Source of the DNA: Mariniflexile litorale | GTDB lineage: Bacteria; Bacteroidota; Bacteroidia; Flavobacteriales; Flavobacteriaceae | DNA: 64,000 bases | Reading direction: 5' to 3' | NCBI RefSeq assembly: GCF_031128465.2 | Contig: NZ_CP155618.1 | Span: 1,249,501 to 1,313,500 of the forward strand | The notes under the pieces: generated by a model | The model's input: only the letters and a program-made list of their open reading frames with translations | The model's database searches: none | What the model was told of the DNA's origin: nothing | Made by a program: the position numbers and the translations under genes | Shown here: positions 16,739-63,269 of the stretch, one piece after another | How the letters are laid out: each line of letters begins with the position of its first letter | How positions within the stretch are numbered: position 1 is the stretch's first letter

Positions 16739-16823
16739 GGGCGTGCCCTTTACAGGTCGGGCTATTCGTTGCAAGTCCTCACTCCTTCGTCGTTGCGGGC
16801 TTTCCACTGCTATCCCTCACGCA
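16739..16823 (-). repeat. Dispersed GCGTTA element, copy A
   Basis: An 85-bp intergenic element between dnaE and ctaB. It shares blocks (GGAAAGCCC, GAGGACTTGCAACGA, TAGCCCGACC) with the copies at 27566, 47053 and 63174. Its outer ends read GCGTG and CACGC and pair perfectly, whereas other copies have GCGTTA and TAACGC, so the fifth pair changed from T-A to G-C on both sides. Confidence 0.8.
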
Positions 16824-16890
16824 AAAGCAGATTCAAATGAAATTTAATATCACAAACTCAATAAAGACGTACTGAGTGATTTTTTAAAGA

Positions 16891-19800
16891 CTAATTTAAC
16901 TTAAACCTGACATCTACGTTTGTTAATTCATTTAACAACTCTTGCGACACTCTTACCTTTTGCTTTCTGCTAGGCATTTGTAGTTTTATTTTTTCTTTAC
17001 TATCATAAACTACAAAATTAAGCATTTGGCTACCTGGATGCATGTGTAACAATTCATGAAGTTTTGCTATTTTTGATTCTTTTAAATCATTAATATCAAT
17101 TTGAATGGATAATTTTTTGGCATAATTCTCCATCACATCATGTAACAATTGGAAACTATTAAATTGCAGTCGTGGGTCACTTTTTTTACCTGTATCTTTA
17201 TTTACCCAACCTTCTCTTATAAACGATTTAACAAAAACGAAATTATTCTGCATTAAAAAATGCCTAAACTTTAGGTACTCTTCACCAAAAATGCGAAATT
17301 CAAAACTATCGGTATAATCTTCAACAGTAAACATAGCCCAACCTTTACCTTGTTTGCTCACACGATGCTGTACCTCGGTAACGACACCTCCAAAAACCAT
17401 TTCTCTATTAACATACATTTCCAAATCTCTAAATAATGCCAAATTTGCATTACAAAAAGTCGTCATTTCAATTTTAAAATCATCTAATGGATGCCCCGAG
17501 ATATAAATACCCACCACCTCTTTTTCGCGAGCTAATTTCCCCATAGTACCCCACTCTTCACATGGTGGCACTTCAGGCTCGGCTATTTGCACATCACTAG
17601 CGTCTCCAAACAGACTTACTTGCGCGGAGTTTTCATTTTCTTGATGTTTATTTCCATAGCGAATGGCTTTTTCTAAAAAAGTAATACCATCACCATCATC
17701 ATGAAAATATTGTGCACGGTGTGTTGTACCAAAACCATCAAACCCCCCTGCCAAAGCTAAATTTTCGAATGCTTTTTTATTTGCAGCTCGTAAATCAATA
17801 CGTTTCGCTAAATCGAAAATAGATTTATATGGACCATCTTTTTTTCGGTTATCAACTATAGTAATAACCGCTCCATGACCAACACCCTTTATAGCGCCCA
17901 TTCCAAAACGCACCGCATTATCTTTATTTACAGAAAACTTATAAAACGATTCATTCACATCAGGACCTAAAACATCCAGTTTCATACGTTTACATTCTTC
18001 CATAAAAAACGTTACCTGCTTGATATCGTTCATGTTATTAGAGAGCACAGCAGCCATATACTCTGCTGGATAATGCGCCTTTAAATAGGCTGTTTGGTAA
18101 GCAATCCAAGCATAGCATGTAGAATGCGATTTATTAAAGGCATAACTCGCAAAAGCTTCCCAATCTTTCCAGATTTTCTCTAGTATTTTAGCATCATGAC
18201 CATTAGCACTCGCCTGCTCCACAAATTTAGGTTTCATTTTATCGAGTACCGCAATTTGCTTTTTTCCCATCGCCTTTCTCAATACATCAGCTTCACCCTT
18301 TGTAAACCCTGCTAGTTTTTGAGATAATAACATCACCTGCTCTTGATACACCGTAATACCATAAGTTTCCTTCAGGTATTCTTCCATGGCATCTAAATCA
18401 TATTCTATAGGTTCATCTCCATGCTTTCGACGTGTAAAACTTGGAATATATTCCATAGGCCCTGGACGGTACAAAGCATTCATGGCAATTAAATCTTCAA
18501 AAACAGTAGGCTTTAATTCTTTAAGGTGTTTTTGCATCCCAGGCGATTCATATTGGAACACACCAACGGTTTCTCCTTTTTGAAATAACTCATACGTCTT
18601 TTCATCATCTAACGGAAAAGTATCGGGATCTAATAAAATATCATGTTTTGCTTTAACAATTTTAACAGTGTCTTTTATTAATGTTAATGTTTTTAACCCC
18701 AAGAAATCCATTTTCAATAACCCCGCTTCTTCGACCACCGAATTGTCGAATTGGGTCACATATAAATCGGAATCTTTAGCCGTCGCCACTGGCACAAACT
18801 TGGTGATATCATCTGGCGTAATGATAACTCCACATGCGTGGATACCTGTATTACGCACCGAACCCTCTAATATTCTTGCTAGGTTTACGGTTTCTGCTTC
18901 TAAATCGCTTCCTTCAGAAATATTTAAAAGCTGATTGACTTTTTCTAAATCTTCCGCTCTAAACTTACTCCCCAACTCCTTTTCACTTAAACCGAAAATT
19001 TTACTCAGTTTAGACATGGTTGGAATTAACTTCGCAATTCTATCGGCATCAAACAAAGGCAAATCCAAAACACGTGCGGTATCACGTATAGAAGATTTTG
19101 CAGCCATTGTACCATAGGTTATAATTTGTGCTACTTGATTACTTCCATATTTATTGATTACATAATCCATCACACGACTTCTGCCCTCGTCATCAAAATC
19201 GATATCAATATCGGGCATACTTACACGGTCTGGATTCAAAAAACGCTCAAAAAGTAAATCGTATTTAAGCGGATCTATATTGGTAATCCATAAACAGTAG
19301 GCCACTACGGAACCTGCCGCAGACCCACGACCAGGACCTACAGAAACATCCATATTCCGAGCTTCACGTATAAAATCTTCGACAATTAAAAAATAACCCG
19401 GATATCCTGTATTTTGAATAACATCTAACTCAAAATCTAAACGTTCTATAACTTCTTCTGAAAGTTCTTTGCCATAACGCTTTTTAGCCCCTTGATACGT
19501 TAAATGACGCAAATAGGCATTTTCACCACGTTTGCCACCATCTACTAAATCTTCTTCTTTTCTAAACTCATTTGGAATATCAAAAGCGGGTAATAAAACT
19601 TCACGGGCCAACTCGTAGGCTTCTACTTTATCAACCACTTCTTGAATATTACTTATCGCTTCTGGAACATCCTTGAAGAGTGATTTCATCTCTTCTGAAG
19701 ACTTAAAATAATAATCTTGATTAGGTAATCCGTATCGATATCCACGACCACGACCAATTGGTGTCGCTTGCTTTTCCCCATCTTTTACACAAAGCAAAAT

Positions 19801-21279
19801 ATCGTGTGCGTTGGCATCTTCTTTTTTACAATAATAAGTATTATTACTGGCGACTAATTTAACGTCATGTTTTTTTGAAAGTTCTATTAAAACAGGGTTT
19901 ACACGGTTTTCGTCTTCCTGATTATGTCGCATTAACTCAATATACAAATCGTCTCCAAACTGTTCTTTCCACCAAAGTAAAGCTTCTTCGGCTTGATTTT
20001 CACCTACATTTAAAACCTTACTTGGTACTTCTCCATATAAATTACCCGTTAGAACAATTAAATCTTCTTTATATTCTTCAATAAGTTTTTTATCGATTCT
20101 GGGTAGATAATAAAACCCATTAACAAAGGCATGAGAAGATAGTTTTGCCAAATTATGATAGCCATTTTTATTTTTAGCTAAAAACACAATCTGGTAACCA
20201 TTATCTTTTCTGGTTTTATCTGTATGATCTTCACAAACAAAAAATTCGCAACCAATGATTGGTTTAATTTCTACAGCAGTTGGCAACTCCCCTTTTTCAA
20301 TAGCTGCGTTATTTTTAGCTTTTACACCTCTGTTATGATTACTAACTGCTTTTACAAAATGAAAAGCCCCCATCATATTAGCATGATCTGTTAAAGCTAC
20401 TGCAGGCATGCGATGCTCTGCTGCCGAAGCGACCAAATCAGCAACACTAATAGTAGATTGTAATACCGAAAATTGTGAATGATTATGCAGATGCACAAAA
20501 TCAACTTCCTTTAAATCGGATATATTTTGTTTAATTTCTTCGGTAGAAATCACATCCTCTTGAACGTTTTTTATTCGTTCAAGAATTTTAGCACTTTCTT
20601 TTTTAAGGTTGATATGTTTTAAACCTATAAGCTGAATTTCCGTGGGATTCGCCTCTTTAAACGACTTAAAATAATCTGGCTGAACATCTAGCTCTTCTTT
20701 GGTGTATTCCTCTAAACGAATCAGTTCTAAAAAGCATCGAGTTGTTGCTTCCACATCGGCAGTGGCATTGTGCGCTTCAGAAAAAGGTACATTAAATAAA
20801 AATTGGTGTAACTCGGTAAGAGTAGGCAACTTAAATTTCCCATAACGGCCGCCTGGAATTTGGCATAAACTAGCTGTATGTTCAGTACAAGTATCTAAAA
20901 CTGGGAGTTCTTGCAATGGGTTTGCTACATCGCCACGTACAAATTCGGCTCCCATAATATTCAGGTCGAACTTCACATTTTGTCCCACAACAAATTTAGT
21001 TCTATTTAAAACCTCATTAAATTTTTCTAAAACTTCAGCCAATGGAATACCCTGTTCTTGCGCTAATTCGGTAGAAATACCATGAATTTTTTCAGCATCA
21101 TAAGGAATGTTAAATCCATCTGGTTGTACCAAATAATCTTGATGTTCTATATAATTTCCCAATCCATCGTGTAATTGCCATGCTATTTGAATACAACGAG
21201 GCCAATTATCGGTATCAGTTATGGGTGCATCCCAACGTTTCGGCAATCCAGTGGTTTCTGTATCGAAAATTAAGTACAT
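16891..21279 (-). CDS. dnaE: DNA polymerase III alpha subunit with fused N-terminal proofreading exonuclease
   Basis: 1462 residues. Residues 1-185 are a DnaQ-type DEDDh exonuclease with a full set of catalytic residues: D6 and E8 ('FDTETTG'), D105 ('VGQNVKFDLN'), H170 and D175 ('AHNATADVEAT'). A linker leads to the PHP domain (about 260, 'DFVHLHNHSQFSVL') and the C-family polymerase with the catalytic 'PDIDIDFDDEGR'. The tail holds helix-hairpin-helix and OB-fold ('VFGGVVTEVQHRVS') regions. This is the main replicase. The fusion is known in Bacteroidetes and departs from the separate DnaE/DnaQ of Proteobacteria. Single gene; no clear promoter box seen upstream. Confidence 0.97.
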   Translation of the reverse strand: MYLIFDTETTGLPKRWDAPITDTDNWPRCIQIAWQLHDGLGNYIEHQDYLVQPDGFNIPYDAEKIHGISTELAQEQGIPLAEVLEKFNEVLNRTKFVVGQNVKFDLNIMGAEFVRGDVANPLQELPVLDTCTEHTASLCQIPGGRYGKFKLPTLTELHQFLFNVPFSEAHNATADVEATTRCFLELIRLEEYTKEELDVQPDYFKSFKEANPTEIQLIGLKHINLKKESAKILERIKNVQEDVISTEEIKQNISDLKEVDFVHLHNHSQFSVLQSTISVADLVASAAEHRMPAVALTDHANMMGAFHFVKAVSNHNRGVKAKNNAAIEKGELPTAVEIKPIIGCEFFVCEDHTDKTRKDNGYQIVFLAKNKNGYHNLAKLSSHAFVNGFYYLPRIDKKLIEEYKEDLIVLTGNLYGEVPSKVLNVGENQAEEALLWWKEQFGDDLYIELMRHNQEDENRVNPVLIELSKKHDVKLVASNNTYYCKKEDANAHDILLCVKDGEKQATPIGRGRGYRYGLPNQDYYFKSSEEMKSLFKDVPEAISNIQEVVDKVEAYELAREVLLPAFDIPNEFRKEEDLVDGGKRGENAYLRHLTYQGAKKRYGKELSEEVIERLDFELDVIQNTGYPGYFLIVEDFIREARNMDVSVGPGRGSAAGSVVAYCLWITNIDPLKYDLLFERFLNPDRVSMPDIDIDFDDEGRSRVMDYVINKYGSNQVAQIITYGTMAAKSSIRDTARVLDLPLFDADRIAKLIPTMSKLSKIFGLSEKELGSKFRAEDLEKVNQLLNISEGSDLEAETVNLARILEGSVRNTGIHACGVIITPDDITKFVPVATAKDSDLYVTQFDNSVVEEAGLLKMDFLGLKTLTLIKDTVKIVKAKHDILLDPDTFPLDDEKTYELFQKGETVGVFQYESPGMQKHLKELKPTVFEDLIAMNALYRPGPMEYIPSFTRRKHGDEPIEYDLDAMEEYLKETYGITVYQEQVMLLSQKLAGFTKGEADVLRKAMGKKQIAVLDKMKPKFVEQASANGHDAKILEKIWKDWEAFASYAFNKSHSTCYAWIAYQTAYLKAHYPAEYMAAVLSNNMNDIKQVTFFMEECKRMKLDVLGPDVNESFYKFSVNKDNAVRFGMGAIKGVGHGAVITIVDNRKKDGPYKSIFDLAKRIDLRAANKKAFENLALAGGFDGFGTTHRAQYFHDDGDGITFLEKAIRYGNKHQENENSAQVSLFGDASDVQIAEPEVPPCEEWGTMGKLAREKEVVGIYISGHPLDDFKIEMTTFCNANLALFRDLEMYVNREMVFGGVVTEVQHRVSKQGKGWAMFTVEDYTDSFEFRIFGEEYLKFRHFLMQNNFVFVKSFIREGWVNKDTGKKSDPRLQFNSFQLLHDVMENYAKKLSIQIDINDLKESKIAKLHELLHMHPGSQMLNFVVYDSKEKIKLQMPSRKQKVRVSQELLNELTNVDVRFKLN

Positions 21280-21422
21280 TATTTTGCTTAGATGTTTGTT
21301 GTTAAGTCGTTTATAATTTTCAAACGAAGTTTATAAAAATACAGAATTATATCGCTTTTAAAAGTTAAAGTTACAAAGAGTTTTAAACAAAAAGTTAGTG
21401 ATTAAATTCATTAAAAAAATAC

Positions 21423-21430
21423 TATTTTTG
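21423..21430 (+). promoter_or_regulatory. Bacteroidetes -7 box before the lactonase-like gene
   Basis: TATTTTTG, 20 bp before the start codon at 21451. No TTG at ideal -33 spacing. Confidence 0.4.
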
Positions 21431-21450
21431 AATTTATTAAAATAGGTACT

Positions 21451-22512
21451 ATGAAAATCAGACTATTATCTCTAAGTTTTTCTTTCTGCTTCTTGAATTG
21501 CTTCGCACAAAATATCCCCCTGTATATTGGCACTTATACCGATGGTCACAGCGAAGGTATTTATAAGTTGCAATTCAATTTAAAAACAGGAGAGCTTAGC
21601 CGTTTACAATTAGCAATAGCCACTGAAAACCCTTCATTTATAACATACTCACCAAACAAAAAATATTTATACGCTGTTAGCGAAAGTCTTGGAGGCTCAG
21701 TTTCTTCTTTTAAAATTCAAGAAAATGGCTTGTTAAAATTTTTAAACAAAGTAAGTAGTAATGGAACGGGGCCTTGCCATATTTCATTAAATAAACAGGG
21801 AAACAAAGCTGTTGTTTCAAATTATAGAGGAGGTAGTGCATCCATTTATAGTATCGCTAGAGACGGAAAACTAAATGAAGCCTCTCAAATTTTTGATTAT
21901 AACACCACAGATATAATATCACATGCACATTCCGCACAATTTTTTAGAGACGAATTATATATAGCCGACCTAGGCATGAATGCTCTTTACCAATACAAAT
22001 TAAAAAACAACAATTATGAATTGGCAACGCCATCCATTTTTAAAACTACAGAAAACCTAGGGCCAAGGCATTTTGCTTTAACTAAAAACGGACAATTCAT
22101 TTATATTATTAATGAACACGGAAGCTCTGTGACTTCGGTTAAAAAAACAGCTTCTGGTTTTAAACAGATTGACTACGATTCTACTTTAGACGAAAATTAC
22201 CAAGGAAAAAATTCTTGTGCCGATATCCATTTATCTAAAAACGAACATTATTTATATGGCTCTAACCGCGGTGAAAATTCCATCGTCGTTTTTAAAAGAA
22301 ATAAATTTGATGGTACCATTGAAAAAATTCAAACAGTACCTGTTCATGGCGATTGGCCAAGAAACTTCACGCTAGATCCATCTGGAAAATTTTTATTAGT
22401 GGCCAATCAAAAAAGCCGAAATATTTCTGTTTTTAGCATTGATACTTCTTCAGGAACACTCACATTTTTACACGATGTAAAAGCACCCACACCTGTTTGT
22501 TTGCTGTTTTAA
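21451..22512 (+). CDS. Exported beta-propeller protein, 6-phosphogluconolactonase (Pgl/YbhE) family
   Basis: 353 residues. A signal peptide (to about 19, '..FLNCFAQ') precedes a seven-bladed propeller of the lactonase family: 'PLYIGTYTDGHSEGIYKLQFN', 'NPSFITYSPNKKYLYAVSE', 'GTGPCHISL', 'GPRHFALTKNGQFIYIINE' and 'WPRNFTLDPSGKFLLVANQ' are its repeat motifs. The cytosolic YbhE relative hydrolyses 6-phosphogluconolactone, but a secreted form would not meet that substrate, so the true substrate is uncertain. Stands alone between dnaE and rpsP. Confidence 0.88.
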   Translation: MKIRLLSLSFSFCFLNCFAQNIPLYIGTYTDGHSEGIYKLQFNLKTGELSRLQLAIATENPSFITYSPNKKYLYAVSESLGGSVSSFKIQENGLLKFLNKVSSNGTGPCHISLNKQGNKAVVSNYRGGSASIYSIARDGKLNEASQIFDYNTTDIISHAHSAQFFRDELYIADLGMNALYQYKLKNNNYELATPSIFKTTENLGPRHFALTKNGQFIYIINEHGSSVTSVKKTASGFKQIDYDSTLDENYQGKNSCADIHLSKNEHYLYGSNRGENSIVVFKRNKFDGTIEKIQTVPVHGDWPRNFTLDPSGKFLLVANQKSRNISVFSIDTSSGTLTFLHDVKAPTPVCLLF

Positions 22513-22541
22513 AAAATTCTATTTCAAAAGAAAATAAATCA

Positions 22542-22571
22542 TTGATAATTAGTAATAAAAGAGTATCTTTG
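22542..22571 (+). promoter_or_regulatory. rpsP promoter
   Basis: TTG (22542-22544), 19-bp spacer, TATCTTTG (22564-22571): a full match to the Bacteroidetes consensus. A short hairpin (GAGGT/ACCTC) follows in the leader around 22589-22603. Confidence 0.7.
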
Positions 22572-22618
22572 CGCCCTTATTAATAACCGAGGTCGAGAAC
22601 CTCATATAATTAATTATT

Positions 22619-23164
22619 ATGCCAGTAAAAATTAGATTACAAAGACATGGTAAAAAAGGGAAACCTTTTTACTGGATTGTTGCAGCCGATGTACGATCAA
22701 AAAGAGACGGTAAATACCTTGAAAAATTAGGTATCTACAATCCAAACACCAACCCAGCAACTATAGATTTAAATGTTGATGGTGCTGTACAATGGTTACA
22801 AAACGGTGCACAACCAACCGACACAGCTAAAGCTATTTTATCTTACAAAGGTGCTTTACTAAAAAATCACCTTGCAGGTGGTGTTAGAAAAGGTGCTTTA
22901 ACAGAAGAACAAGCTGAAGCTAAATTTACTGCTTGGTTAGAAGAAAAAGCTGGTAAAGTTGGTTCTAAAACTGACGGATTAGCTAAAGCACAAGCTGAAG
23001 CGAAAGCAAAAGCTTTAGAAGCTGAAAAAGCTGCTAACGAAGCTCGTGTTGCTGCTGCTGCTCCTGTTGTAGAAGAGGAAGTTGCAGAAGAAGTAGTTGC
23101 GGAAGAAACTGCTACAGAAGAAGCTCCTGCTGCTGAAGCAGAAGCACCTAAAGAAGAAGAATAA
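22619..23164 (+). CDS. rpsP: 30S ribosomal protein S16 with long Ala/Glu-rich C-terminal tail
   Basis: 181 residues. The first 80 or so are S16 ('MPVKIRLQRHGKKGKPFYWI', 'GRYLEKLG'-like 'KYLEKLGIYNPNTNPATI'). Usual S16 is 80-90 residues; here a low-complexity tail of roughly 90 residues rich in Ala, Glu, Lys and Val ('EEEVAEEVVAEETATEE') follows. Such tails are common in Bacteroidetes S16. The protein helps assemble the 30S body. A strong terminator separates it from rimM, although both act on 30S assembly. Confidence 0.97.
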   Translation: MPVKIRLQRHGKKGKPFYWIVAADVRSKRDGKYLEKLGIYNPNTNPATIDLNVDGAVQWLQNGAQPTDTAKAILSYKGALLKNHLAGGVRKGALTEEQAEAKFTAWLEEKAGKVGSKTDGLAKAQAEAKAKALEAEKAANEARVAAAAPVVEEEVAEEVVAEETATEEAPAAEAEAPKEEE

Positions 23165-23187
23165 AAAAAATTATTTTTTATACTTTT

Positions 23188-23216
23188 AAACTCCGATAAA
23201 ATTATCGGAGTTTTTT
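23188..23216 (+). terminator. rpsP terminator
   Basis: A perfect AAACTCCGATAA/TTATCGGAGTTT-type stem (about 12 bp, 2-base centre) followed by six T, 24 bp after the rpsP stop. Confidence 0.9.
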
Positions 23217-23241
23217 ATGCAAAAAAGTTTCATTTTTGCAT

Positions 23242-23308
23242 ATTCCTTTGAAGAAAGGAATCTCATTAAATGTAAACCAAAAGATTTTCGCCTTCGCGGA
23301 AATGACAA
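23242..23308. repeat. Double mini-palindrome, dispersed-repeat remnant
   Basis: Two small stem-loops side by side: ATTCCTTT-gaag-AAAGGAAT (23242-23261) and a TTTCGC-cttc-GCGGAAA-like unit ending in AATGACAA (about 23286-23308). The second motif resembles short palindromes at about 27697-27713. It lies in the rpsP-rimM gap just ahead of the rimM start. Repeat status is inferred from shape; genome-wide copy number is unknown. Confidence 0.45.
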
Positions 23309-23320
23309 TTATTGTAATTG

Positions 23321-23845
23321 ATGAAAAAAGAAGATTGTTTTTATTTAGGTAAAATTGTATCAAAATATAGTTTTAAAGGTGAACTTTTAATTAAATTGGA
23401 TACCGACCAACCTGACTTATACGAAAGTCTTGACGCCATTTTTATTGAAGTTCGAAATACATTAATTCCTTTTTTTATTGAACGCTCACAGCTTCATAAA
23501 TCCGATTTATTGCGTGTGCAGTTTGAAGATGTTACCAATGAAGCCGATGCCGATGTTTTAATAAAAAGTGACGTGTATTTACCTTTAGAATTTTTACCTA
23601 AACTAGAAGGTGATAAATTCTATTTTCACGAAGTTATTGGATTTACTGTTGAAGATGTAAACTATGGAAAAGTAGGTGTCATAGTTGGTATTAACGATTC
23701 AACCGCTCAAGCCTTATTTGAAATAGAAAATAATGGCAAAGAAATTCTTATCCCGATGAATGATGAATTTATTGAAAAAGTAGACAGAAAAGTAAAAACT
23801 ATTTTAGTTAAAACTCCCGAGGGGTTGATTGATTTGTATCTGTAG
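23321..23845 (+). CDS. rimM: Ribosome maturation factor RimM
   Basis: 174 residues from ATG 23321 (a TTG three bases earlier is not needed). N-terminal RimM domain 'YLGKIVSKYSFKGELLIKLDTD' and a C-terminal PRC barrel 'KFYFHEVIGFTVED' with 'ILIPMNDEFIEKVDRKVKTILV' follow the family order. RimM binds S19 and aids maturation of the 30S head. Follows rpsP, as in many bacteria, but after an intervening terminator and a palindromic repeat. Confidence 0.96.
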   Translation: MKKEDCFYLGKIVSKYSFKGELLIKLDTDQPDLYESLDAIFIEVRNTLIPFFIERSQLHKSDLLRVQFEDVTNEADADVLIKSDVYLPLEFLPKLEGDKFYFHEVIGFTVEDVNYGKVGVIVGINDSTAQALFEIENNGKEILIPMNDEFIEKVDRKVKTILVKTPEGLIDLYL

Positions 23846-23866
23846 TTTTCTAAATTATTAAAAAAA

Positions 23867-23900
23867 GAAAAGGCTGATTTTTATAAAAATCAGCCTTTTC
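23867..23900. terminator. Bidirectional terminator between rimM and the DUF2383 gene
   Basis: A 34-bp perfect palindrome (core AAAAGGCTGATT/AATCAGCCTTTT) with A-runs on one side and T-rich sequence on the other. It sits between convergent stops at 23845 and 23917 and can serve both. Confidence 0.9.
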
Positions 23901-23916
23901 TTCTGTTGTATCTATA

Positions 23917-24366: not shown

Positions 24367-24490
24367 ACAAATAATCTTTAGCTTAGCACTTTCAATAAAT
24401 TTTTTTAAGATGCGTATTGTTTTCACATCTATACTACAAAATTAATAACGTAAATAACACAAACTTATTTTTTAACACAGTTTAGCATAT

Positions 24491-24508
24491 TAAGGTATTT
24501 ATACCTTA
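24491..24508. promoter_or_regulatory. Small perfect palindrome between divergent genes
   Basis: TAAGGTAT, two T, then ATACCTTA: an 18-bp dyad about 30 bp before the trmN6-like start and 125 bp from the divergent DUF2383 gene. It could be an operator. No regulator is assigned. Confidence 0.3.
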
Positions 24509-24536
24509 TTTTATTAAAATCATTATCACATCATAT

Positions 24537-27565: not shown

Positions 27566-27660
27566 TGCGTTAGGGATAGCAGTGGAAAGCCCACAGCGAC
27601 CCCGCCTTTTCGGGGGAGCGAGGACTTGGAACGTATAGCCCGACCCTTGTGGTAACGCCC
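27566..27660 (+). repeat. Dispersed GCGTTA element, copy B
   Basis: A 95-bp element between convergent genes. Ends GCGTTA and TAACGC pair. Internal order: GGGATAGCAGTGGAAAGCCC, a hairpin CCCCG-cctttt-CGGGG flanked by two tandem G-A mismatches, then GAGCGAGGACTTGGAACG and AGCCCGACCCTTGTGG. It shares this order with copy D and, on the opposite strand, with copy A. Confidence 0.85.
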
Positions 27661-31392: not shown

Positions 31393-31491
31393 ATGCTTAT
31401 CTTTGATTTTGCTTTAAATATTATGCTAGGGATTACAGCAACATACTTTTTAGCAAAGTTTATTAAACAAAAAAATCCTTTTTTTTGTTAA
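31393..31491 (+). CDS. Possible 32-residue hydrophobic peptide
   Basis: A short frame, MLIFDFALNIMLGITATYFL then a basic tail (AKFIKQKNPFFC), about 33 bp after a -7-like box. It would make one transmembrane helix with a positive cytosolic end. No homologue is recognised and no ribosome-binding signal decides it; it may be chance. Kept because the start, promoter box and one-helix layout agree. Confidence 0.25.
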   Translation: MLIFDFALNIMLGITATYFLAKFIKQKNPFFC

Positions 31492-31540
31492 AATAATACA
31501 AAAACAAACAAGGAGTCACTTTTTTAAAAAGATATATCAA

Positions 31541-31564
31541 AAGCCCAACTCTTGGGGTAACACC
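31541..31564 (+). repeat. Decayed end of the dispersed GCGTTA element (fragment E)
   Basis: Matches the last block of the element (AGCCCGACCCTTGTGGTAAC, then GCC) with four changes: AGCCCAACTCTTGGGGTAAC then ACC. The rest of the element is not recognisable upstream. It ends 11 bp before the glycosyltransferase start. Confidence 0.6.
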
Positions 31565-47052: not shown

Positions 47053-47144
47053 TGCGTTAGGGATTGAAGCAATTGTTTGAGCTCTTTTTGCGACGGAAGA
47101 AGCAAAAAAGCGAGTGCGTAAAGCCCGACCCTTGTGGTAACGCC
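47053..47144 (+). repeat. Dispersed GCGTTA element, copy C
   Basis: A 92-bp element between divergent glyS and comF. It keeps the GCGTTA/TAACGC ends, GGGATTGAAGC, GCGAG and AAAGCCCGACCCTTGTGG blocks, but its inner arm is different: CTTTTTGC pairs with GCAAAAAAG, in place of the CCCCG/CGGGG arm of copies B and D. It ends 19 bp before the comF start. Confidence 0.85.
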
Positions 47145-47163
47145 AAAAATTATTATTGATTTT

Positions 47164-55448: not shown

Positions 55449-55480
55449 TATTTTAAATTTTAATTTCGAAATAAATATAA

Positions 55481-55488
55481 CAAAAATA
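55481..55488 (-). promoter_or_regulatory. -7 box of the zinc metallopeptidase gene
   Basis: TATTTTTG on the minus strand, 33 bp before the start. No ideal -33 TTG. Confidence 0.4.
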
Positions 55489-55540
55489 ACGCCAAATTAT
55501 TATGAATGATATTCTGTCAGTAAAAAAACTTTAAACTAAA

Positions 55541-55567
55541 AAACCCCTAGAGAATCTCTTGGGGTTT
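55541..55567 (-). terminator. Terminator of ald
   Basis: AAACCCC and GGGGTTT arms around an inner AGAG/CTCT pair; T-rich on the minus side, 24 bp past the ald stop. Confidence 0.85.
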
Positions 55568-55590
55568 AAGTACTTGATATCTTATTATTT

Positions 55591-56691
55591 TTATACGTCT
55601 GCAAACTCTAAATCAAATGCTTCGGCTATTTCTTTATAAACAATATCTCCTTTTACAATATTTAATCCTTTGGCTAGAGACGGACTATTTTCACAAGCTT
55701 TTTCCCAACCTTGATTTGCCAGTTTCACAACATAAGGCAACGTGACATTCGTTAACGCCATGGTAGATGTATAAGGCACAGCACCAGGCATATTAGCCAC
55801 ACTGTAATGCACCACTTCATCAATAATATAAGTGGGATCTTGGTGTGTGGTTGGTCTAGTGGTTTCAAAACAGCCACCTTGGTCTACCGCCACATCAACC
55901 ATTACAGTTCCAGGGCGCATGTCTTTAAGCATATCTCTTGTAATTAATTTAGGTGCCTTAGCGCCCTTTATAAGTACACCTCCAATAATTAAATCGGAAT
56001 CTTTAATATGTTTTCTTATGTTATATTCACTTGAAAATTCACTAACAACGTTATTCGGCATCGAATCACTCACATAACGTAGGGCTTTCATATTAATATC
56101 TAAAATATGTACGCTCGCTCCTAAACCTGATGCCATTTTTGCGGCTTGATACCCTACAACACCAGCACCTAAAATTAATACTTTAGCTGGAGGCACTCCC
56201 GGAACCCCACCAAGTAAAATACCGCGTCCCATAATAGGTTTTTCAAGATATTTGGCGCCTTGTTGCACAGACATTCTGCCTGCTACTTCAGACATGGGGA
56301 TTAAAAGCGGCAATGTACCATCAGCATCTTCAACGGTTTCGTATGCAATACAAATTGATTTACTTTTTATCATAGCATTTGTAAGCACTTCACTAGAAGC
56401 AAAATGAAAATAAGTAAAAACGATTTGATCTGGTTTTATTAAACTGTATTCGTGTTCAATAGGTTCTTTCACCTTTACAATCATTTCAGCAATAGCGTAA
56501 ACATCTTCAATAGTTTCAAGAATGGTTGCACCAGCACCAGTATAATCTTCGTCTAAAAAACCACTATTAAATCCAGCATTTTTTTGAACATATACTGTAT
56601 GATTTCTTTTAGTAAGTTCGAATACTCCAGAGGGTGTCATCCCTACTCTGTTTTCATTGTTTTTAATTTCTATTGGAACACCAATTTTCAT
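55591..56691 (-). CDS. ald: Alanine dehydrogenase
   Basis: 366 residues from ATG 56691 ('MKIGVPIEIKNNENRVGMTP'); the longer frame adds 12 residues with no family match. NAD-binding 'KVLILGAGVVGYQAAKMASGLGASVHILD', 'VMVDVAVDQGGCFETTRPTTH' and 'NMPGAVPYTST' are diagnostic. It interconverts alanine with pyruvate and ammonia. Single gene closed by a terminator; the roughly 600 bp upstream are non-coding or decayed. Confidence 0.95.
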   Translation of the reverse strand: MKIGVPIEIKNNENRVGMTPSGVFELTKRNHTVYVQKNAGFNSGFLDEDYTGAGATILETIEDVYAIAEMIVKVKEPIEHEYSLIKPDQIVFTYFHFASSEVLTNAMIKSKSICIAYETVEDADGTLPLLIPMSEVAGRMSVQQGAKYLEKPIMGRGILLGGVPGVPPAKVLILGAGVVGYQAAKMASGLGASVHILDINMKALRYVSDSMPNNVVSEFSSEYNIRKHIKDSDLIIGGVLIKGAKAPKLITRDMLKDMRPGTVMVDVAVDQGGCFETTRPTTHQDPTYIIDEVVHYSVANMPGAVPYTSTMALTNVTLPYVVKLANQGWEKACENSPSLAKGLNIVKGDIVYKEIAEAFDLEFADV

Positions 56692-56916
56692 AGTATGATA
56701 TTTTAAGTTAGTCAAAAACCTATGCAATATTAAAACAATAGATTGAAAAAAAGTTTAAAAACACCATTTTTGATAAATAATTTTCATCAAATTTAACTTA
56801 TTTTTAGGAATTAAATAAAACATATGGATTTAATAGGAAATAACAAGCACTTATAAAAAAAGAATATTTATAAAAAACAAAGTCTTATTCTAACTACTTT
56901 TTGTCGTACTTAATTT

Positions 56917-57152
56917 TTAAAATATACCAAAAAAAGCTGACAAAACAGATGTTGCATTAGCTAAAATCATAGACAGACTTTCTTTACAAACGGCATAAAC
57001 CAACCATAAAAAACACCAATGAAAAACATGAGCAACATGAGTAAAGACACGCTCGAAATATTTTTAGTTTTTCATGTTTTATAAACTTAAAGTAAAAAGA
57101 CTGCAGCGGTTAAAATGGCGGCTGGAAAACTAATAATTTCGGTATAATCCAT
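56917..57152 (-). pseudogene. Possible decayed small membrane-protein gene
   Basis: Between ald and leuS, the minus strand reads as a hydrophobic chain only if frames are changed twice or more: 'MDYTEIISFPAAILTAAVFLL' from 57152, then 'KFIKHEKLKIFR', 'SLLMLLMFFIGVFYGWFMPF' and 'LSMILANATSVLSAFFGIF' to a stop at 56917-56919. The pieces follow each other without gaps and look like a protein of two or three helices, so this may be a dead gene. It could also be chance in A+T-rich DNA. Outside this stretch the 56692-57290 gap holds only the palindrome at 57195-57277. Confidence 0.3.
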
Positions 57153-57194
57153 TTAGTGTGATTTTTTGTTAAAAAGCTAAAGCTAATTATTTGT

Positions 57195-57277
57195 TATGTC
57201 GAAATGAGGTACGATTGAGACATCACATAATGAATTAAATGATTCTTGTTATGTGATGTCTCCTATCGTCTACATGA
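57195..57277. repeat. Long palindromic repeat near the leuS 3' end
   Basis: A perfect 14-bp stem (GAGACATCACATAA with its complement, 57217-57230 and 57249-57262), extended outward imperfectly through ACGAT on both sides, with an 18-base loop. It lies 14 bp past the leuS stop and could end leuS transcription, but has no T-run. One arm, read as GTCATGTAGACGATAGGAGA, resembles the repeat block inside leuS. Confidence 0.6.
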
Positions 57278-57290
57278 CTAGTCGCTAACG

Positions 57291-60281
57291 CTAGCCTACA
57301 ATATTTACAATTTTACCTGGCACGATAATCACTTTTTTCGGGGTTCTACCTGCCAATTGTTCTTGAGTTTTTTCGTGTGCCATCACTACTTTTTCAATAT
57401 CATCTTTACTCATATCTAGTGGCAATTCTAGAGTAAAACGCATTTTTCCGTTGAAAGAAATAGGATAGTTTTTACTGCTTTCTACCAAATGACTGGCATC
57501 AAATTTCGGAAATGGCGCTGTGGAAATGGATTCGTTATGTCCTAATTGACTCCATAGTTCTTCAGCGATATGTGGCGCATACGGTGATAACAATACCAAT
57601 AAGGGTTCTAAAATTTCTTTAGAGGTGCATTTTTGAGCTGTTAATTCATTCACCGCAATCATAAAAGTTGACACCGACGTATTGAAAGAGAAATTCTCTA
57701 TATCTTCCTGTACTTTTTTGATGGTTTTATGAAGTGTTTTTAAAGCCTCCCCTAACCCCTCCGAAGGAGGAGAACTCGTTACGTAAAAAGTTTCATTTTC
57801 TCCTTGGTGGTATAATCTCCATAATTTTTTAAGGAAACCGTGTACACCTGTAATACCAGCGGTATTCCAAGGTTTGTATTGCTCTAAGGGGCCTAAAAAC
57901 ATTTCGTAAAGACGCAAACTGTCTGCACCGTAATCAACACAAATTTGGTCTGGATTGACTACGTTGTATTTGGATTTGGACATTTTTTCGACATCTCGTC
58001 CTACTTTGTAAACACCATTATCACCATCGATAATTTCTCCTTTTTCACCTATAAATATAGCATCTTTATATTCAGGTCTCCATTTTTTAAATCCTTCAAC
58101 ATCTAACTCATCGGAAGAATTCACTAAAGATACATCTGCATGCATCAAAGCTATATCCATATCATAATCAATATAAGGCAAATAAGATTTTTCACTTTCC
58201 TTATGAATCTCTTCTAATTTGGTATGAACTAAACTAACATCGTCCTTATACATTTTGTAATATGATTCCGAAATAAATAAATTAGGAAATCTATTTGACC
58301 CAAAAAACTTATAAACAAAAGCACTAGTCCCCAAAATCATCCCTTGGTTAATCAGTTTTTTAGCAAACTCATCAACGGGTACTTCTCCTTTATCGAATAA
58401 GAATTTTTGCCAAAAACGTGAGTACAATAAATGTCCCGTGGCATGCTCGCTGCCTCCAATGTATAAATCGACGTCTTTCCAATAATTAAGCGCTTCTTTA
58501 CTAGCAAATTCTTCTGTGTTTGTAGAATCCATATAGCGGTTAAAATACCAAGAACTTCCTGCCCAACCTGGCATCGTATTTAACTCTAAAGGATGAATGG
58601 TTGTGTTGTTTATTTTATCGTTTGAAACTACTTCATTCGTATTGGTGTCCCAAGCCCAAACGGTGGCGTTACCTAATGGTGGTTCACCGGTTTCGGTTGG
58701 TAAATATTTTTCAACTTCTGGCAAACGTATTGGTAAATGTTTCGCATCAATCATTTGTGGCATGCCATTTACATAATACACTGGGAATGGTTCACCCCAA
58801 TAACGTTGACGACTAAAAACAGCATCGCGCAAACGGTAATTGGTTTTCCCTTCACCTTGACCTAATTTCTCTAAAGCTTCAATGACTTTTTTAGTGGCTT
58901 CTTTGTATGATAAACCATTTAAAAAATCACTGTTCCCAATTGTCACATTATCTTTTGAAGCATAGGCTTCTTTAGAAATATCAACCCCTTCAAAAATATT
59001 TGGAATGGGGATATTGAAATGCTTTGCAAAATCGTAATCGCGTTGGTCGCCACACGGAACGGACATCACCGCACCTGTTCCGTAACCTGCTAAAACAAAA
59101 TCGCCAATCCAAACTGGAATAGGCTGTTTAGTAAACGGATGTTGGGCATAGGCGCCTGTAAAAACTCCTGAAATGGTTTTTACATCGGCCATTCTATCAC
59201 GTTCGCTACGCTTCGCGGTTGCTGAAATATAGGCTTCCACTTGGTCTTTTTGTGCTGGGGTTGTTATATGAGAAACTAACTCGTGTTCTGGAGCAAGGGT
59301 CATAAAAGACACTCCAAAAATAGTATCGGGTCTTGTAGTAAATACATCAATAATGTGAGATGCTTCGACAAGCTCAGCATGACTTCCGTTTTCATTATTG
59401 GCTAAAACCTTGAATGATACAGCAGCTCCAACCGATTTCCCAATCCAGTTACGCTGACTTTCCTTTAAAGAATCTGTCCAATCTATTTTATTTAACCCTT
59501 GAAGTAAACGCTCAGCATACGCCGAAATACGCATACTCCATTGTGTCATTTTCTTTCTCATAACAGTGTGACCTCCACGTTCGGAAACACCATTTACAAT
59601 TTCATCATTAGCCAACACCGTTCCTAATGCAGGACACCAGTTTACTTCGGTTTCTGCTAAATAAGTTAATCTATATTGTAATAATATTTGTTGTTGTTTT
59701 TTGGAATCAAAGGCATTCCAATCTTCAGCAGAAAACATTTCAACATTATCATCACAAACGGCTTCCACTGCTAAATTTCCTTCTTTTTCAAATACATCCA
59801 CTAATTCGGAAATGGCAAAAGCTTTATCGGTATGTTTGCAATACCAAGATTCAAACAATTGAATAAAAATCCACTGTGTCCATTTATAATAACTTGGGTC
59901 GGAGGTACGAACTTCACGAGACCAATCGAATGAAAAACCAATTTGATCTAATTGACGTCTGTAAGTTTTTATGTTTTCAGCTGTAGTTATTGCAGGATGT
60001 TGCCCCGTTTGAATCGCATATTGTTCAGCTGGCAAACCAAAGCTATCATACCCTTGTGGATGCAATACATTAAACCCTTGATGACGTTTGTAACGCGCAT
60101 AAATATCAGACGCGATATAACCCAACGGATGTCCAACGTGTAAGCCTGCACCACTTGGATACGGAAACATGTCTAATACATAAAATTTTGGTTTTTCTGA
60201 ATTATTCTCAGCTTTAAACGTTTGGTTTTTTGCCCAATAGTCTTGCCACTTTTTCTCGATTTGATTGAAATCGTACGTCAT
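57291..60281 (-). CDS. leuS: Leucyl-tRNA synthetase
   Basis: 996 residues from ATG 60281 ('MTYDFNQIEKKWQDYWAKNQ'); the longer frame adds nine hydrophobic residues. Class I motifs: 'PYPSGAGLHVGHPLGY' (HIGH) and 'VEKMSKSKYNVVNPD' (KMSKS); 'FTTRPDTIFGVSFMTLAPEH' is the editing domain. It is longer than the roughly 860 residues of E. coli, partly from a large insert before KMSKS ('QGMILGTSAFVYKF' onward). Two short stretches, around residues 299-309 and 836-846, look like repeat DNA read in frame. Charges tRNA-Leu. Confidence 0.97.
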   Translation of the reverse strand: MTYDFNQIEKKWQDYWAKNQTFKAENNSEKPKFYVLDMFPYPSGAGLHVGHPLGYIASDIYARYKRHQGFNVLHPQGYDSFGLPAEQYAIQTGQHPAITTAENIKTYRRQLDQIGFSFDWSREVRTSDPSYYKWTQWIFIQLFESWYCKHTDKAFAISELVDVFEKEGNLAVEAVCDDNVEMFSAEDWNAFDSKKQQQILLQYRLTYLAETEVNWCPALGTVLANDEIVNGVSERGGHTVMRKKMTQWSMRISAYAERLLQGLNKIDWTDSLKESQRNWIGKSVGAAVSFKVLANNENGSHAELVEASHIIDVFTTRPDTIFGVSFMTLAPEHELVSHITTPAQKDQVEAYISATAKRSERDRMADVKTISGVFTGAYAQHPFTKQPIPVWIGDFVLAGYGTGAVMSVPCGDQRDYDFAKHFNIPIPNIFEGVDISKEAYASKDNVTIGNSDFLNGLSYKEATKKVIEALEKLGQGEGKTNYRLRDAVFSRQRYWGEPFPVYYVNGMPQMIDAKHLPIRLPEVEKYLPTETGEPPLGNATVWAWDTNTNEVVSNDKINNTTIHPLELNTMPGWAGSSWYFNRYMDSTNTEEFASKEALNYWKDVDLYIGGSEHATGHLLYSRFWQKFLFDKGEVPVDEFAKKLINQGMILGTSAFVYKFFGSNRFPNLFISESYYKMYKDDVSLVHTKLEEIHKESEKSYLPYIDYDMDIALMHADVSLVNSSDELDVEGFKKWRPEYKDAIFIGEKGEIIDGDNGVYKVGRDVEKMSKSKYNVVNPDQICVDYGADSLRLYEMFLGPLEQYKPWNTAGITGVHGFLKKLWRLYHQGENETFYVTSSPPSEGLGEALKTLHKTIKKVQEDIENFSFNTSVSTFMIAVNELTAQKCTSKEILEPLLVLLSPYAPHIAEELWSQLGHNESISTAPFPKFDASHLVESSKNYPISFNGKMRFTLELPLDMSKDDIEKVVMAHEKTQEQLAGRTPKKVIIVPGKIVNIVG
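57745..57774. repeat. Repeat-like block in frame within leuS (second)
   Basis: A C/G-rich block with CCTCC-gaa-GGAGG stem and flanking TTAGGGGAGG, unlike its A+T-rich surroundings. It encodes 'SSPPSEGLGEAL' just before the conserved 'KTLHKTIKK', a place where other LeuS sequences are shorter. Resembles dispersed C/G-rich Flavobacteria repeats; copy number unknown. Confidence 0.5.
59355..59387. repeat. Repeat-like block in frame within leuS (first)
   Basis: Reads, on the coding strand, AGTCATGCTGAGCTTGTCGA then AGCATCTCA, a sequence I recognise as a common dispersed intergenic repeat in Bacteroidetes genomes. Here it encodes 'SHAELVEASH' at the entry of the editing domain, just before 'IDVFTTRPD'. 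Frame is preserved. Confidence 0.6.
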
Positions 60282-60323
60282 CCTTCTTATTATAAATATT
60301 AACATCATTGCTAAGGTTATTGA

Positions 60324-60343
60324 GATTAAAATATATTTTAATC
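60324..60343. promoter_or_regulatory. Perfect 20-bp A+T palindrome upstream of leuS
   Basis: GATTAAAATA followed by its exact complement, 43 bp before the leuS ATG. It may be a protein-binding site or cruciform-prone DNA; no regulator assigned. Confidence 0.3.
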
Positions 60344-60344
60344 G

Positions 60345-60436
60345 AAAATACCTAAGCGGAGCTTACGACTGTGGGAATCTAGTCAATATAACATTATATA
60401 TTTAACAGGTTCCCACGCTTCGCTCGTAATGACGAA
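60345..60436. repeat. Palindromic repeat between leuS and the EamA gene
   Basis: Inverted arms with GTGGGAA (60371-60377) and TTCCCAC (60410-60416), extended by related GAGC/GCTTCGCTC flanks and ending in AATGACGA. The ending 'TAATGACGA' type is common to Flavobacteria palindromic repeats. No T-run, so not an obvious terminator. Lies between divergent genes. Confidence 0.5.
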
Positions 60437-60530
60437 TTGGAAAGCGCAAATTTACGCATTCTATAGAAAATTGAAAGCGTTTGCCTCTATATATCATTAA
60501 ATATAACAGCTATTTAAGGTTTTGTTAGGA

Positions 60531-61481
60531 ATGCAATTTGTAATTTCGCCGCTTAAACATTCTTTTGGTTTGATAAAAAACACTACCAAAGCCCATTTGG
60601 CCCTGCTAGGCGCCAACATAATATATGGCGCAAACTACATTATTGCTAAAGGCATCATGCCTAATAAAATTGGCCCCACTGCTTTTGTTTTTATTCGGCT
60701 TTCTTGTTGTGTCCTGCTTTTTTGGACTATTAAACTTTTGTTTGTTAAAGAAAAAGTTGAAAAGAAAGATCTATTAATGCTAGCACTTTGTGGTCTTTTT
60801 GGTGGTGCCGCCAACCAATTGTTGTTTTTTCATGGGATTAATTTAACATCACCTATTGATGCGTCAATAATCACAACCACCACTCCTGTTATAGTTTTAA
60901 TTTTTAGTTATCTTATTTTAAAAGAACGTATTACTCAAAATAAACTATTAGGCATCACATTGGGTGCTATTGGTGCTATATTTTTAATTGTATATGGGAA
61001 TAAAGCGATTGGAACAAGTTCGTTTACGGGAAATTTGTTTGTTCTACTAAATGCTTGTAGTTATGGATTGTACCTTGTTCTGGCAAAAACATTAATGAAA
61101 AAATACCACGCCATTACCGTAGTTAGTTGGATATTTTTATTTGGTTTCCTGTATGTATTTCCTTTTGGAGTATCAGATTTTTTAAACACCAATTTTGAAG
61201 CCTTTACTACTAGTACTTATTTAACTATTGGTTATGTGGTTTTATTTACCACCTTTTTTGCATACTTATTTAATATTTATGCGCTTAATCATTTAGCGCC
61301 TTCTGTAACCAGTAGCTATGTTTATTTACAACCTGTGGTTAGCTTTATTTTGGTTAGTGTATTGGCGTTTGTTTTTATGCAAAGTCAATACGGGCAAGAC
61401 ATTAACTTAATTAAAATATTAAGTTGCTTGCTTGTTGCTGTAGGTGTCTATTTAATTAGCAAACCACAAAAGAATAAATGA
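60531..61481 (+). CDS. EamA family (DMT) transporter
   Basis: 316 residues from ATG 60531 (TTG nine bases earlier not used). Ten helices in two EamA repeats: 'HLALLGANIIYGANYIIAKGIM' and 'FTGNLFVLLNACSYGLYLVLAKTLMKKY', each ending with 'LTSPIDASIITTTTPVIVLIF' or 'LAPSVTSSYVYLQPVVSFIL'. Drug/metabolite exporter or amino-acid exporter class; substrate unknown. Single gene, divergent from leuS. Confidence 0.92.
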   Translation: MQFVISPLKHSFGLIKNTTKAHLALLGANIIYGANYIIAKGIMPNKIGPTAFVFIRLSCCVLLFWTIKLLFVKEKVEKKDLLMLALCGLFGGAANQLLFFHGINLTSPIDASIITTTTPVIVLIFSYLILKERITQNKLLGITLGAIGAIFLIVYGNKAIGTSSFTGNLFVLLNACSYGLYLVLAKTLMKKYHAITVVSWIFLFGFLYVFPFGVSDFLNTNFEAFTTSTYLTIGYVVLFTTFFAYLFNIYALNHLAPSVTSSYVYLQPVVSFILVSVLAFVFMQSQYGQDINLIKILSCLLVAVGVYLISKPQKNK

Positions 61482-61515
61482 TAAATCCAATCTTTCTTTA
61501 TTTAAATTATAGATC

Positions 61516-62088
61516 TTAAAACTTGTGTCCTATTGAGAGTTGCAATACTCCATTTTTTATGTCTGGATTTTCACTAATAGTTGTTATACCAAAACTGTAG
61601 CGCACTTGGGAAAACCATTTCTCACTAATATTAATGCCAATGCCAGTATTTATAGCAAATTCAAAAGTACTAGCATCGGTATCAAATTTTGCGGCATCAT
61701 CATCATTAAACTTAGCTATATCATTTATTAAAAACCCAAATTGCGGACCAACATCTACACTCAGTTTATCGACTAAGTAAAATTTAGCCATAATTGGAAT
61801 GATTATATAATCTAATCTAAATTTTACAACATTCTCTTCTTCTACTCCAACCCTAGAATACAATAATTCGGGCTGTAAAGCAAAGAAATCACTTATGCGT
61901 GCCTCTGCAATAAATCCTGCATGAACACCTACCAAACTATTTCTATCAATAGGGTTACTTGACCTGTTGCCGTGGAAGGTAGATATATTCACCCCTGCTT
62001 TAGCTCCGAAATTAACTGTTTGTGCATGGGTGTTTTTAAAAAATGTACCAATTACTATAACACTTAAAATAAAAATTTTTTTCATCAT
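61516..62088 (-). CDS. Outer-membrane beta-barrel protein (porin-like, OMP_b-brl_2 type)
   Basis: 190 residues. Signal peptide (to about 22, '..TFFKNTHA') then an eight-strand-like barrel: 'VNFGAKAGVNISTFHG', 'VGVHAGFIAEARISDFFALQPELLYSRVG', 'YIIIPIMAKFYLVDKLSVDVGPQFGFLIND' and a terminal aromatic 'LSIGHKF'. This matches the small PorT-like OmpA/OmpX-type barrels of Bacteroidetes. Adjacent start Mets (62088 or 62085). Role unknown. Confidence 0.9.
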   Translation of the reverse strand: MMKKIFILSVIVIGTFFKNTHAQTVNFGAKAGVNISTFHGNRSSNPIDRNSLVGVHAGFIAEARISDFFALQPELLYSRVGVEEENVVKFRLDYIIIPIMAKFYLVDKLSVDVGPQFGFLINDIAKFNDDDAAKFDTDASTFEFAINTGIGINISEKWFSQVRYSFGITTISENPDIKNGVLQLSIGHKF

Positions 62089-62293
62089 AATTTATTTATT
62101 CTAGTTACATCTTTAAAATATTTTCAACAATTATACCAATTCTAACAAAAATTTAAAACTAATCATTTGCTATATAAAGAACAACAATTTTAATTAAGGT
62201 AAGTTATTGTAATAACAGGCTGTATGAATGCTTTAATTAAATTATCCTTTTTACTATATCTTTTACTATTTTTACACCGTTAATCCTATATTT

Positions 62294-63172
62294 ATGAGTT
62301 CCTCTTTTGAAAAAGACCAAAAACGCCGACTTATTTCCTCATACTTTTCAGTGGTATTGAGCATTGCTCTCGTCCTATTTTTATTAGGTTTGTTGGGCAT
62401 GCTGGTTTTAAATGCCAAAAAAGTATCCGACCATTTTAAAGAACAAGTGGTTGTTACTATTTATTTAAAAGACACTGCCAAAGAAGTTGAAATTAAACAA
62501 CTTGAAAAAAGTTTAGCTATGGCCGATTACGTAAAATCTATTGAATACGTATCGAAAGAAGAGGCTGCCGAATTTTTAAAAGCAGATAACGGTGAAGATT
62601 TCATGGATTTTGTAGGTTATAACCCGTTGCAAAACTCTATTGATGTACACTTAAAAGCCGATTTTGTAACCTCTGAACATCTTGAAAAAATATCAGACGA
62701 AGCAACCTCCAAAAATTTTGTAGACGAAGTAACTTACGACAATGATTTGGTAAACCTCATGAACGAAAATGTTAAGAAAATAAGTTTCTGGGTATTGGTT
62801 ATCAGTACCATTTTTACACTAATTGCCGTATTATTGATTAACAGTTCTATAAGACTTGCCGTTTATTCAAAACGATTCACCATAAAAACCATGCAAATGG
62901 TGGGGGCTACGAAACAATTTATACGTCGCCCATTTGTTTGGAAAAGTGTTCGCTTAGGTATTATTGGAGCTATATTAGCCCTCATAGGCATGGGTATTGT
63001 GTTATATTACATTAATAAAACCTTCCCTGAATTAGGCTTGCTAAGCACCCCTTTTTTAGTTGTTTTGCTTTTTGTTATTATATTTACTTTAGGTGTTACT
63101 ATTACATGGATAAGTACCCATATTGCCACACAGCGTTTCTTAAATTTAAGAACGGACGAATTATATTATTAG
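62294..63172 (+). CDS. ftsX: Cell-division ABC permease FtsX
   Basis: 292 residues. One N-terminal helix (about 22-43), a small extracytoplasmic domain ('VVVTIYLKDTAKEVEIKQLEKSL', 'VKSIEYVSKEEAAEFLKAD'), then three helices with 'KTMQMVGATKQFIRRPFVWKS', the FtsX signature. With FtsE (not in this window) it activates wall hydrolases at the septum. It is followed by copy D and DUF3098, a typical Bacteroidetes order. Confidence 0.95.
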   Translation: MSSSFEKDQKRRLISSYFSVVLSIALVLFLLGLLGMLVLNAKKVSDHFKEQVVVTIYLKDTAKEVEIKQLEKSLAMADYVKSIEYVSKEEAAEFLKADNGEDFMDFVGYNPLQNSIDVHLKADFVTSEHLEKISDEATSKNFVDEVTYDNDLVNLMNENVKKISFWVLVISTIFTLIAVLLINSSIRLAVYSKRFTIKTMQMVGATKQFIRRPFVWKSVRLGIIGAILALIGMGIVLYYINKTFPELGLLSTPFLVVLLFVIIFTLGVTITWISTHIATQRFLNLRTDELYY

Positions 63173-63173
63173 G

Positions 63174-63269
63174 TTGGGCGTTACCCAAGGGTCGGGTTTT
63201 TCGTTGCAAGTCCTCGCTCCCCCGAAGTGTCGGGGTCACTGCGGGCTTTCCACTTCAACCCCTAACGCA
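63174..63269 (-). repeat. Dispersed GCGTTA element, copy D
   Basis: A 96-bp element in the ftsX-DUF3098 gap, oriented against the flanking genes. Ends GCGTTA and TAACGC; inner arm CCCCGA/TCGGGG; blocks GGAAAGCCC, GAGCGAGGACTTGCAACGA and CCCGACCC shared with copies A and B. Begins 2 bp after the ftsX stop. Confidence 0.85.

Follow-up and report, generated by a model that had tools for sequence, protein, structure and literature searches.

A variant of the Flavo-1 superfamily in Mariniflexile litorale behaves more as an old mobile repeat than as a small RNA gene

What is the short repeat that recurs between genes in a 64,000-nucleotide stretch of the Mariniflexile litorale chromosome, and what put it there? 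The stretch (the window hereafter; G000:C1:1249501-1313500 of a 4.52-Mb single-contig genome, our own genome below) had been described in an earlier note as holding four intergenic copies of an 85-96 bp element and a remnant, tentatively a mobile repeat and possibly Flavo-1 of Rfam. We find that the element is a variant, with fuller anatomy, of the Flavo-1 (RF01705) superfamily, a large set of short folded repeats dispersed through Bacteroidota genomes, and that it behaves more as an old mobile repeat than as a small RNA gene. At a probability of roughly 0.5, we read it as an old, slow, structure-dependent, non-autonomous mobile repeat that enters A/T tracts beside genes.

Most copies share a common frame, YGCGTTAGGGATTG ... 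AAAGCCCGACC ... GGTAACGCCCAAA, in which the tip of a rod-like fold is variable. Type A carries the Flavo-1 tip (GGCATCCTTTTT...AAAAAGATATAG), type B carries GGAAAGCCC...GAGGACTTG and type D carries GAGCTC...GCGACT, while type C comprises long copies of about 150 bp with additional sequence at the tip. Length ranges from 61 to 173 bp, with a median of 85 (188 copies). A covariance model, R1, was built from c1, c2 and c4, leaving c3 out; all four window copies and the remnant were recovered by R1 search and by direct-repeat and sequence inspection:

c1, 16739..16822 (the R1 range), minus strand: B-type tip, closing stem GCGTG/CACGC; R1 84 bits, Flavo-1 34.7 bits
c2, 27567..27660, plus strand: B-type tip with a CCCCG/CGGGG stem; R1 112.2 bits, Flavo-1 33.7 bits
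c3, 47054..47145, plus strand: another tip, TTGTTTGAGCTC...GCGAG, within the shared frame; R1 40.9 bits, E 2.2e-8
c4, 63176..63268, minus strand: B-type tip; R1 114.1 bits, Flavo-1 17.9 bits
Remnant (decayed copy), about 31425..31562, plus strand: outer ends kept (left ATGCTAGGGATTACAGC, right AAAGCCCAACTCTTGGGGTAACACC), centre replaced; found as direct repeat D3 and by sequence

The shared blocks of c1, c2 and c4 align along their whole length; c3, recovered although absent from the model, shares the outer frame only, and its tip is a longer relative of type D. By mechanical open reading frame (ORF) calls all four copies are intergenic, in the four different neighbour arrangements that the earlier note had listed.

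The shared blocks, which the note had described in their order, align beyond chance. R1 gives 41 matches in the genome, 36 of them at E <=0.001, and the Rfam Flavo-1 model gives at least 43 at E <=10, with 21 above its gathering score (150 of 908 candidates scored). The union is 55 places; 36 of them lie at 1.0-3.0 Mb, and the first 476 kb are empty. Removal of four Flavo-1-only matches below 20 bits leaves about 51, and 49 of these are intergenic. The many extra copies that a covariance search was expected to yield extend to relatives, with 19 to 51 R1 matches in each of six genomes of the genus (E <=0.001) and matches at E <=1e-4 in 111 of 199 Flavobacteriaceae genomes and 59 of 392 Bacteroidota genomes; in the family and phylum searches limited candidates were scored per genome, so that copy counts are at-least values. 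Similar DNA is also found in 62 of 72,556 plasmid records (hosts: 44 Bacteroides, 9 Parabacteroides, 8 Phocaeicola and 1 Capnocytophaga), with at least 80% of the query covered in one place in 37 of the 62. Three plasmid stretches that we fetched hold the complete frame, with right ends CGCCCAAA or CGCCCTAT. A phage collection gave one record matching 47% of the query, and the B-type pattern occurs in four contigs of a viral collection.

Covariation supports the closing stem and the rod. Pairing filters kept 188 of 220 copies for the length count and 177 (128 sites) with at least 7 of 10 Watson-Crick pairs for the pair table; with percentages somewhat raised by this filtering, pairs P1a-P2f are Watson-Crick in 95-99% of the 177 copies. 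The variable pairs P1d, P1e, P2b, P2e and P2f drop to 50-83% when shuffled (variants at P2e: TA 103, AT 66, GC 3; at P1e: TA 153, GC 12, AT 8). The inverted ends GCGTT/AACGC, which are the same as the closing stem, are paired in 96-98%. Both 3x3 loops of the rod are GNA opposite GNA, the outer retaining both Gs in 155/177 copies and both As in 162/177, the inner in 133/177 and 139/177. Pairs of the side hairpin (P3) show no covariation above shuffles in the same 177 copies. Together, closing stem, rod and side hairpin suggest a three-way junction; as a whole it is a reading, since the evidence for P3 is its near-invariance, with a few long hairpins.

Some copies are elaborated further. P3 is enlarged by other palindromes in L119, L122, L106, L325 and L331, so that the tips of hairpins seem to tolerate incoming sequence. 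The tips of four copies of about 150 bp in our own genome (L047, L063, L068, L084) hold a palindrome-like stretch ending AATGAC, CTATGACG or CCATGACG, which looks like a second repeat family sitting inside the first. A GAAATCGTGAATRCTYNGYATTTGC-like sequence (<=3 mismatches) occurs at 476835, 938791, 1106014, 3472454 and 4334728 of the genome; four of the five places are inside or beside element matches (one of the removed matches, at 938812, adjoins it), and it therefore seems to be a left-arm variant with an extra hairpin.

The relation to Flavo-1 is one of kinship. Alignments and pair table show a common rod skeleton of spaced short helices and 3x3 loops. B-type copies match the Flavo-1 model below gathering whereas 21 other copies of the genome pass; no window copy reaches the gathering score of 42 bits, c1 and c2 included, and c3 is unlisted among the candidates scored. 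The element extends beyond the Rfam model (76 positions), which has neither closing stem nor side hairpin in its structure line. The 5-bp closing stem is exact in 19 of the 21 gathering-level matches of our own genome, in six different sequences (one or two of the 19 could be chance, because any downstream position in the fetched piece was allowed for the partner), and absent in L053 and L076.

Is each copy then a small RNA (sRNA) gene, as implied by the Rfam type 'Gene; sRNA'? The covarying fold would suit one, as would an excess of G-U pairs over A-C mismatches (47 vs 22 site-pair cells, each site and pair counted once; p 0.004), but nothing in the present analysis shows a gene. The G-U excess is confined to the inner rod (31 vs 4) and absent from P1a-P2f (11 vs 13); it hints only weakly that folding is strand-specific and does not prove RNA. 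The flavobacterial promoter consensus is TAnnTTTG; no such motif lies at a fixed distance upstream of the element, with 18 occurrences on the element strand and 23 on the other. A copy before a sigma-factor gene, which we take to be rpoD (L184, L185), seems by eye to sit between the terminator and the next promoter. In the available text of the sources, Flavo-1 is a probable, non-cis-regulatory RNA of Bacteroidetes (Weinberg et al. 2010; PMC2864571), and a review tabulates it among the most abundant sRNA families of bacteria, with no function stated for it (PMC9029176). The RNA sequencing study of Flavobacterium psychrophilum, as far as its available text goes, gives no consistent transcription: Flavo-1 matches lie 'indistinctly' sense or antisense and many fall outside transcribed regions (PMC9723704). 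We consider a small RNA gene improbable. Within the open-licence literature, covered mostly by titles, no description of Flavo-1 or such repeats as a mobile element was found.

The surroundings of the copies would suit insertion beside genes. Element edges are sharp: in 177 flanks, T (68%) or C (28%) occupies position -1, and the right end is CAAA, with A/T-rich sequence after it whatever the gene context. The right end also lies nearer to stop codons than the left (median 20 vs 83.5 nt, p 7e-9, orthologous copies included). Among 159 copies with sufficient flank, 145 are intergenic and 14 lie inside mechanical ORFs. The 145 show no strand bias relative to genes (++ 50, -- 41, convergent 32, divergent 22); a preference seen in our own genome, with 24 antisense/antisense against 11 sense/sense, vanished in this larger set (41 vs 50). 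The element is thus dispersed and has defined ends, with no tie to a single strand or gene arrangement, as the earlier note had it, and a cis-regulator of one gene class was rejected, given copies on both strands and mixed neighbours. An integron attC site was likewise rejected. Outer boxes of attC sites are ordered ..AAC ... GTT.., but the element ends GTT ... AAC on both strands, the wrong box order.

Terminal inverted repeats (GCGTT/AACGC) and an A/T target are also what a classical DDE-type MITE (miniature inverted-repeat transposable element) would have, its short ends being moved by the transposase of a full-length insertion sequence (IS). A 5-bp flanking match in three of 59 copies (L087, L104 and L118, which are unrelated; 0.15 expected) would fit such an element, but this came from a test of 384 offset and length combinations, and none of 115 further copies has the match (0.26 expected). 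Strand-specific conserved loops are, moreover, unnecessary for such elements, and we regard this origin as the least likely of those weighed here. The check for target-site duplications that the note had proposed yielded no consistent duplication, although a duplication may have been lost from old copies. An empty site exact to the base was not obtained either.

Presence at individual sites bears most directly on mobility. The right end of c4 lies 4 nt beyond the stop codon of ftsX (FtsX by Pfam), and at this site the M. gromovii genome (G002) has an A tip where ours has a B tip, G005 has other DNA, and no element is present in the genus genomes G001, G003 and G004. We surveyed ftsX at 80 named loci plus the window. 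An element lies 4-9 nt beyond the stop codon, in one orientation, in four of these 81 genes: our own (B tip), M. gromovii (A tip), a metagenome-assembled genome (L291; A tip) and Hyunsoonleella jejuensis (D tip). Three other Hyunsoonleella have an element 118-121 nt past ftsX. On the ftsX tree the four bearers fall in three supported clades and require four parsimony changes, and their grouping as one clade is rejected (approximately unbiased test, p-AU 1.2e-8). The simplest reading is repeated gain at a preferred spot.

The other window sites were compared across the genus. c1 lies upstream of a UbiA-family gene (15737-16627), and an element is present at this gene in all five other genus genomes, eroded in G003 and interrupted in G004. 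The flanks of c1 map apart in G001, G003 and G004 and to separate contigs in G002 and G005: the UbiA-family neighbour is retained in relatives and the other flank is elsewhere, a synteny break at the element. At the c2 site, viewed in four genomes, G005 has an element, G002 a long element near the right-hand gene and G004 a scar-like junction, ACGTTAGGGGGTTAC; none was seen in G001. c3, between two divergent genes of which the right-hand one has a phosphoribosyltransferase domain, is at a site occupied in 6/6 genus genomes, with a diverged copy in G003; tips are alike in our own genome, G004 and G005, and longer and different in G001 and G002. At the remnant site, G005 and G003 have an intact element and G001 retains the left part, whose tip is D-like; the copy is eroded in G002 and mostly lost in G004. 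Elsewhere in the window, an S16-Flavobacteria ribosomal protein leader (RF03138, 56.2 bits) at 22579-22614 directly precedes the ORF at 22619.

Sites are also shared between genera. Of 90 foreign copies, 23 map by both flanks into the stretches of our own genome that were compared, and 21 of the 23 fall on occupied sites, compared with 50 occupied gaps among 180 (p 3e-10; the 180 gaps are those in the fetched loci of our own genome, leaving out the window, to which one of the two empty sites belongs). By distinct site, 10 of 12 are occupied (p 1e-4). With genus copies added, 28 of 30 occupied pairs agree in orientation, and 16 of the 30 differ in tip class; six of the 30 were fetched by design, and foreign copies, chosen by R1, lean to the B tip because that model was built on B-type tips. 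One common site has the opposite orientation (L087 vs L173 and L246), and a site before a gene starting MKIENTKAQMRK is common to six genera. Many sites are therefore old and common to genera, with no recent burst.

Such persistence is what would be expected if the elements were host-maintained structural sites, that is, ancient intergenic folds held in place by selection, for example through binding of a conserved Bacteroidota protein, with tips recombining and mobility long past. Thirty of the 31 mapped other-species copies (the six fetched by design included) are on occupied sites with largely constant orientation, six genera keep the site before the MKIENTKAQMRK gene, and the fold is still intact at old sites. 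Against this, the nameable neighbours are mixed, occupancy at ftsX is scattered, orientation is flipped at one common site, plasmids carry copies, and 88 of 199 family genomes have no match at threshold. We hold selection at fixed sites to be a tentative explanation that ranks close behind the mobile repeat.

If the repeat moves, what moves it? The earlier note had reported no transposase in the window and had called for a trans-acting enzyme such as a REP-associated tyrosine transposase (RAYT; REP, repetitive extragenic palindromic). The first point holds for Y1_Tnp, the sole family tested, with seven matches in our own genome and none in the window. The need for a RAYT is not supported. Y1_Tnp occurs in five of the six genus genomes, yet in G001, where R1 finds 42 copies, no Y1_Tnp match reaches E 0.001; across the family, 15 of 26 high-copy genomes have Y1_Tnp and 11 do not (among them G020, G067, G142, G150 and G182). 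None of 12 Y1_Tnp loci fetched with 1.5-kb flanks, out of 16 matches, is flanked by an element pair; at L157 a single element lies about 0.8 kb off. A RAYT or IS200 is thus unneeded for persistence, and the mover is possibly extinct or of a different type.

A REP/REPIN-type element (REPIN, REP doublets forming hairpins) moved by a Y1 transposase, either RAYT or IS200-like, would nonetheless explain the folded single strand. Y1_Tnp is also commoner in R1-positive than in R1-negative family genomes (58/111 vs 25/88, p 0.0009), and one match in our own genome, at 2419324, is about 1.2 kb from a copy. High copy number, however, shows p 0.09 against Y1_Tnp across the family, and this, with the Y1_Tnp-free genomes and unflanked loci, leaves such a mover very unlikely. 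As described in the available text on REP/REPIN and RAYT systems (PMC2817692, PMC3733652), those repeats are likewise folded, palindromic, intergenic and near or touching stop codons; the element here is longer, apparently forms a three-way junction and reaches high copy in genomes without Y1_Tnp.

Among the Y1_Tnp genes themselves, three in our own genome, at 2.45, 2.91 and 2.95 Mb, have the same score and length and are probably identical IS200-like copies. In two genus genomes (L157, 1477-3009; L154, 1477-3003) a coproporphyrinogen III oxidase (PF01218, 445 and 449 bits) has an in-frame fusion at its N terminus, a Y1_Tnp-like stretch whose Pfam score is 24.2 in L154, above the Y1_Tnp cut-off, and 20.9 in L157, below it; the linkers carry repeated LQGFENLAG-like motifs.

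Weighing these observations, we favour the old mobile repeat for its covarying stem and rod, sharp ends, A/T-rich right flank and right end near stops, together with site presence scattered over the tree and carriage by unrelated replicons. Several points weigh against it. No base-exact pair of filled and empty sites was obtained, and no mover was found. No two copies of one genome, among those compared, are more than 96% identical, which argues against a recent burst. The 14 of 159 copies within mechanical ORFs mean that copies are not all intergenic; the element at ftsX in four genomes could be an old state that was lost many times elsewhere; and the occupancy of foreign-copy sites, far above chance, also fits long host maintenance. 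The mobile interpretation given in the earlier note therefore gains from the scattered presence at the ftsX 3' end and from the plasmid copies, and loses from the many old sites common to genera.

Under the mobile-repeat reading, one strand would adopt the fold described above, with closing stem (5 bp), side hairpin and a long rod that holds the two GNA/GNA loops. A trans-acting enzyme would recognise the strand in this form, whether RNA or single-stranded DNA, and would attach the element by its right end to an A/T tract next to the end of a gene. Once inserted, copies would be inherited over long times, their tips being replaced either through re-insertion at the same preferred spot or through recombination between copies. 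Pneumococcal BOX elements offer a parallel: they too are dispersed, modular and intergenic, constant outside and exchangeable inside. The inner parts of the element here are alternative rod tips; it is unrelated to BOX in sequence, phylum-wide and found on plasmids. A bolder proposal, which we consider possible although doubtful, takes Flavo-1 to be the rod part of a transposable element with a three-way junction, present throughout the phylum. Such an element would move in the form of a folded single strand, insert again and again at the same spots beside gene ends in one orientation, and swap its rod tips.

If the covarying structure belongs to a mobile or chromosomal DNA element, annotation pipelines mislabel many repeats as RNA genes. 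The mobile-repeat reading, if true, would define a structure-dependent element that chooses gene 3' ends as targets in a fixed orientation, and its enzyme could be sought directly in the high-copy genomes that have no Y1 transposases.

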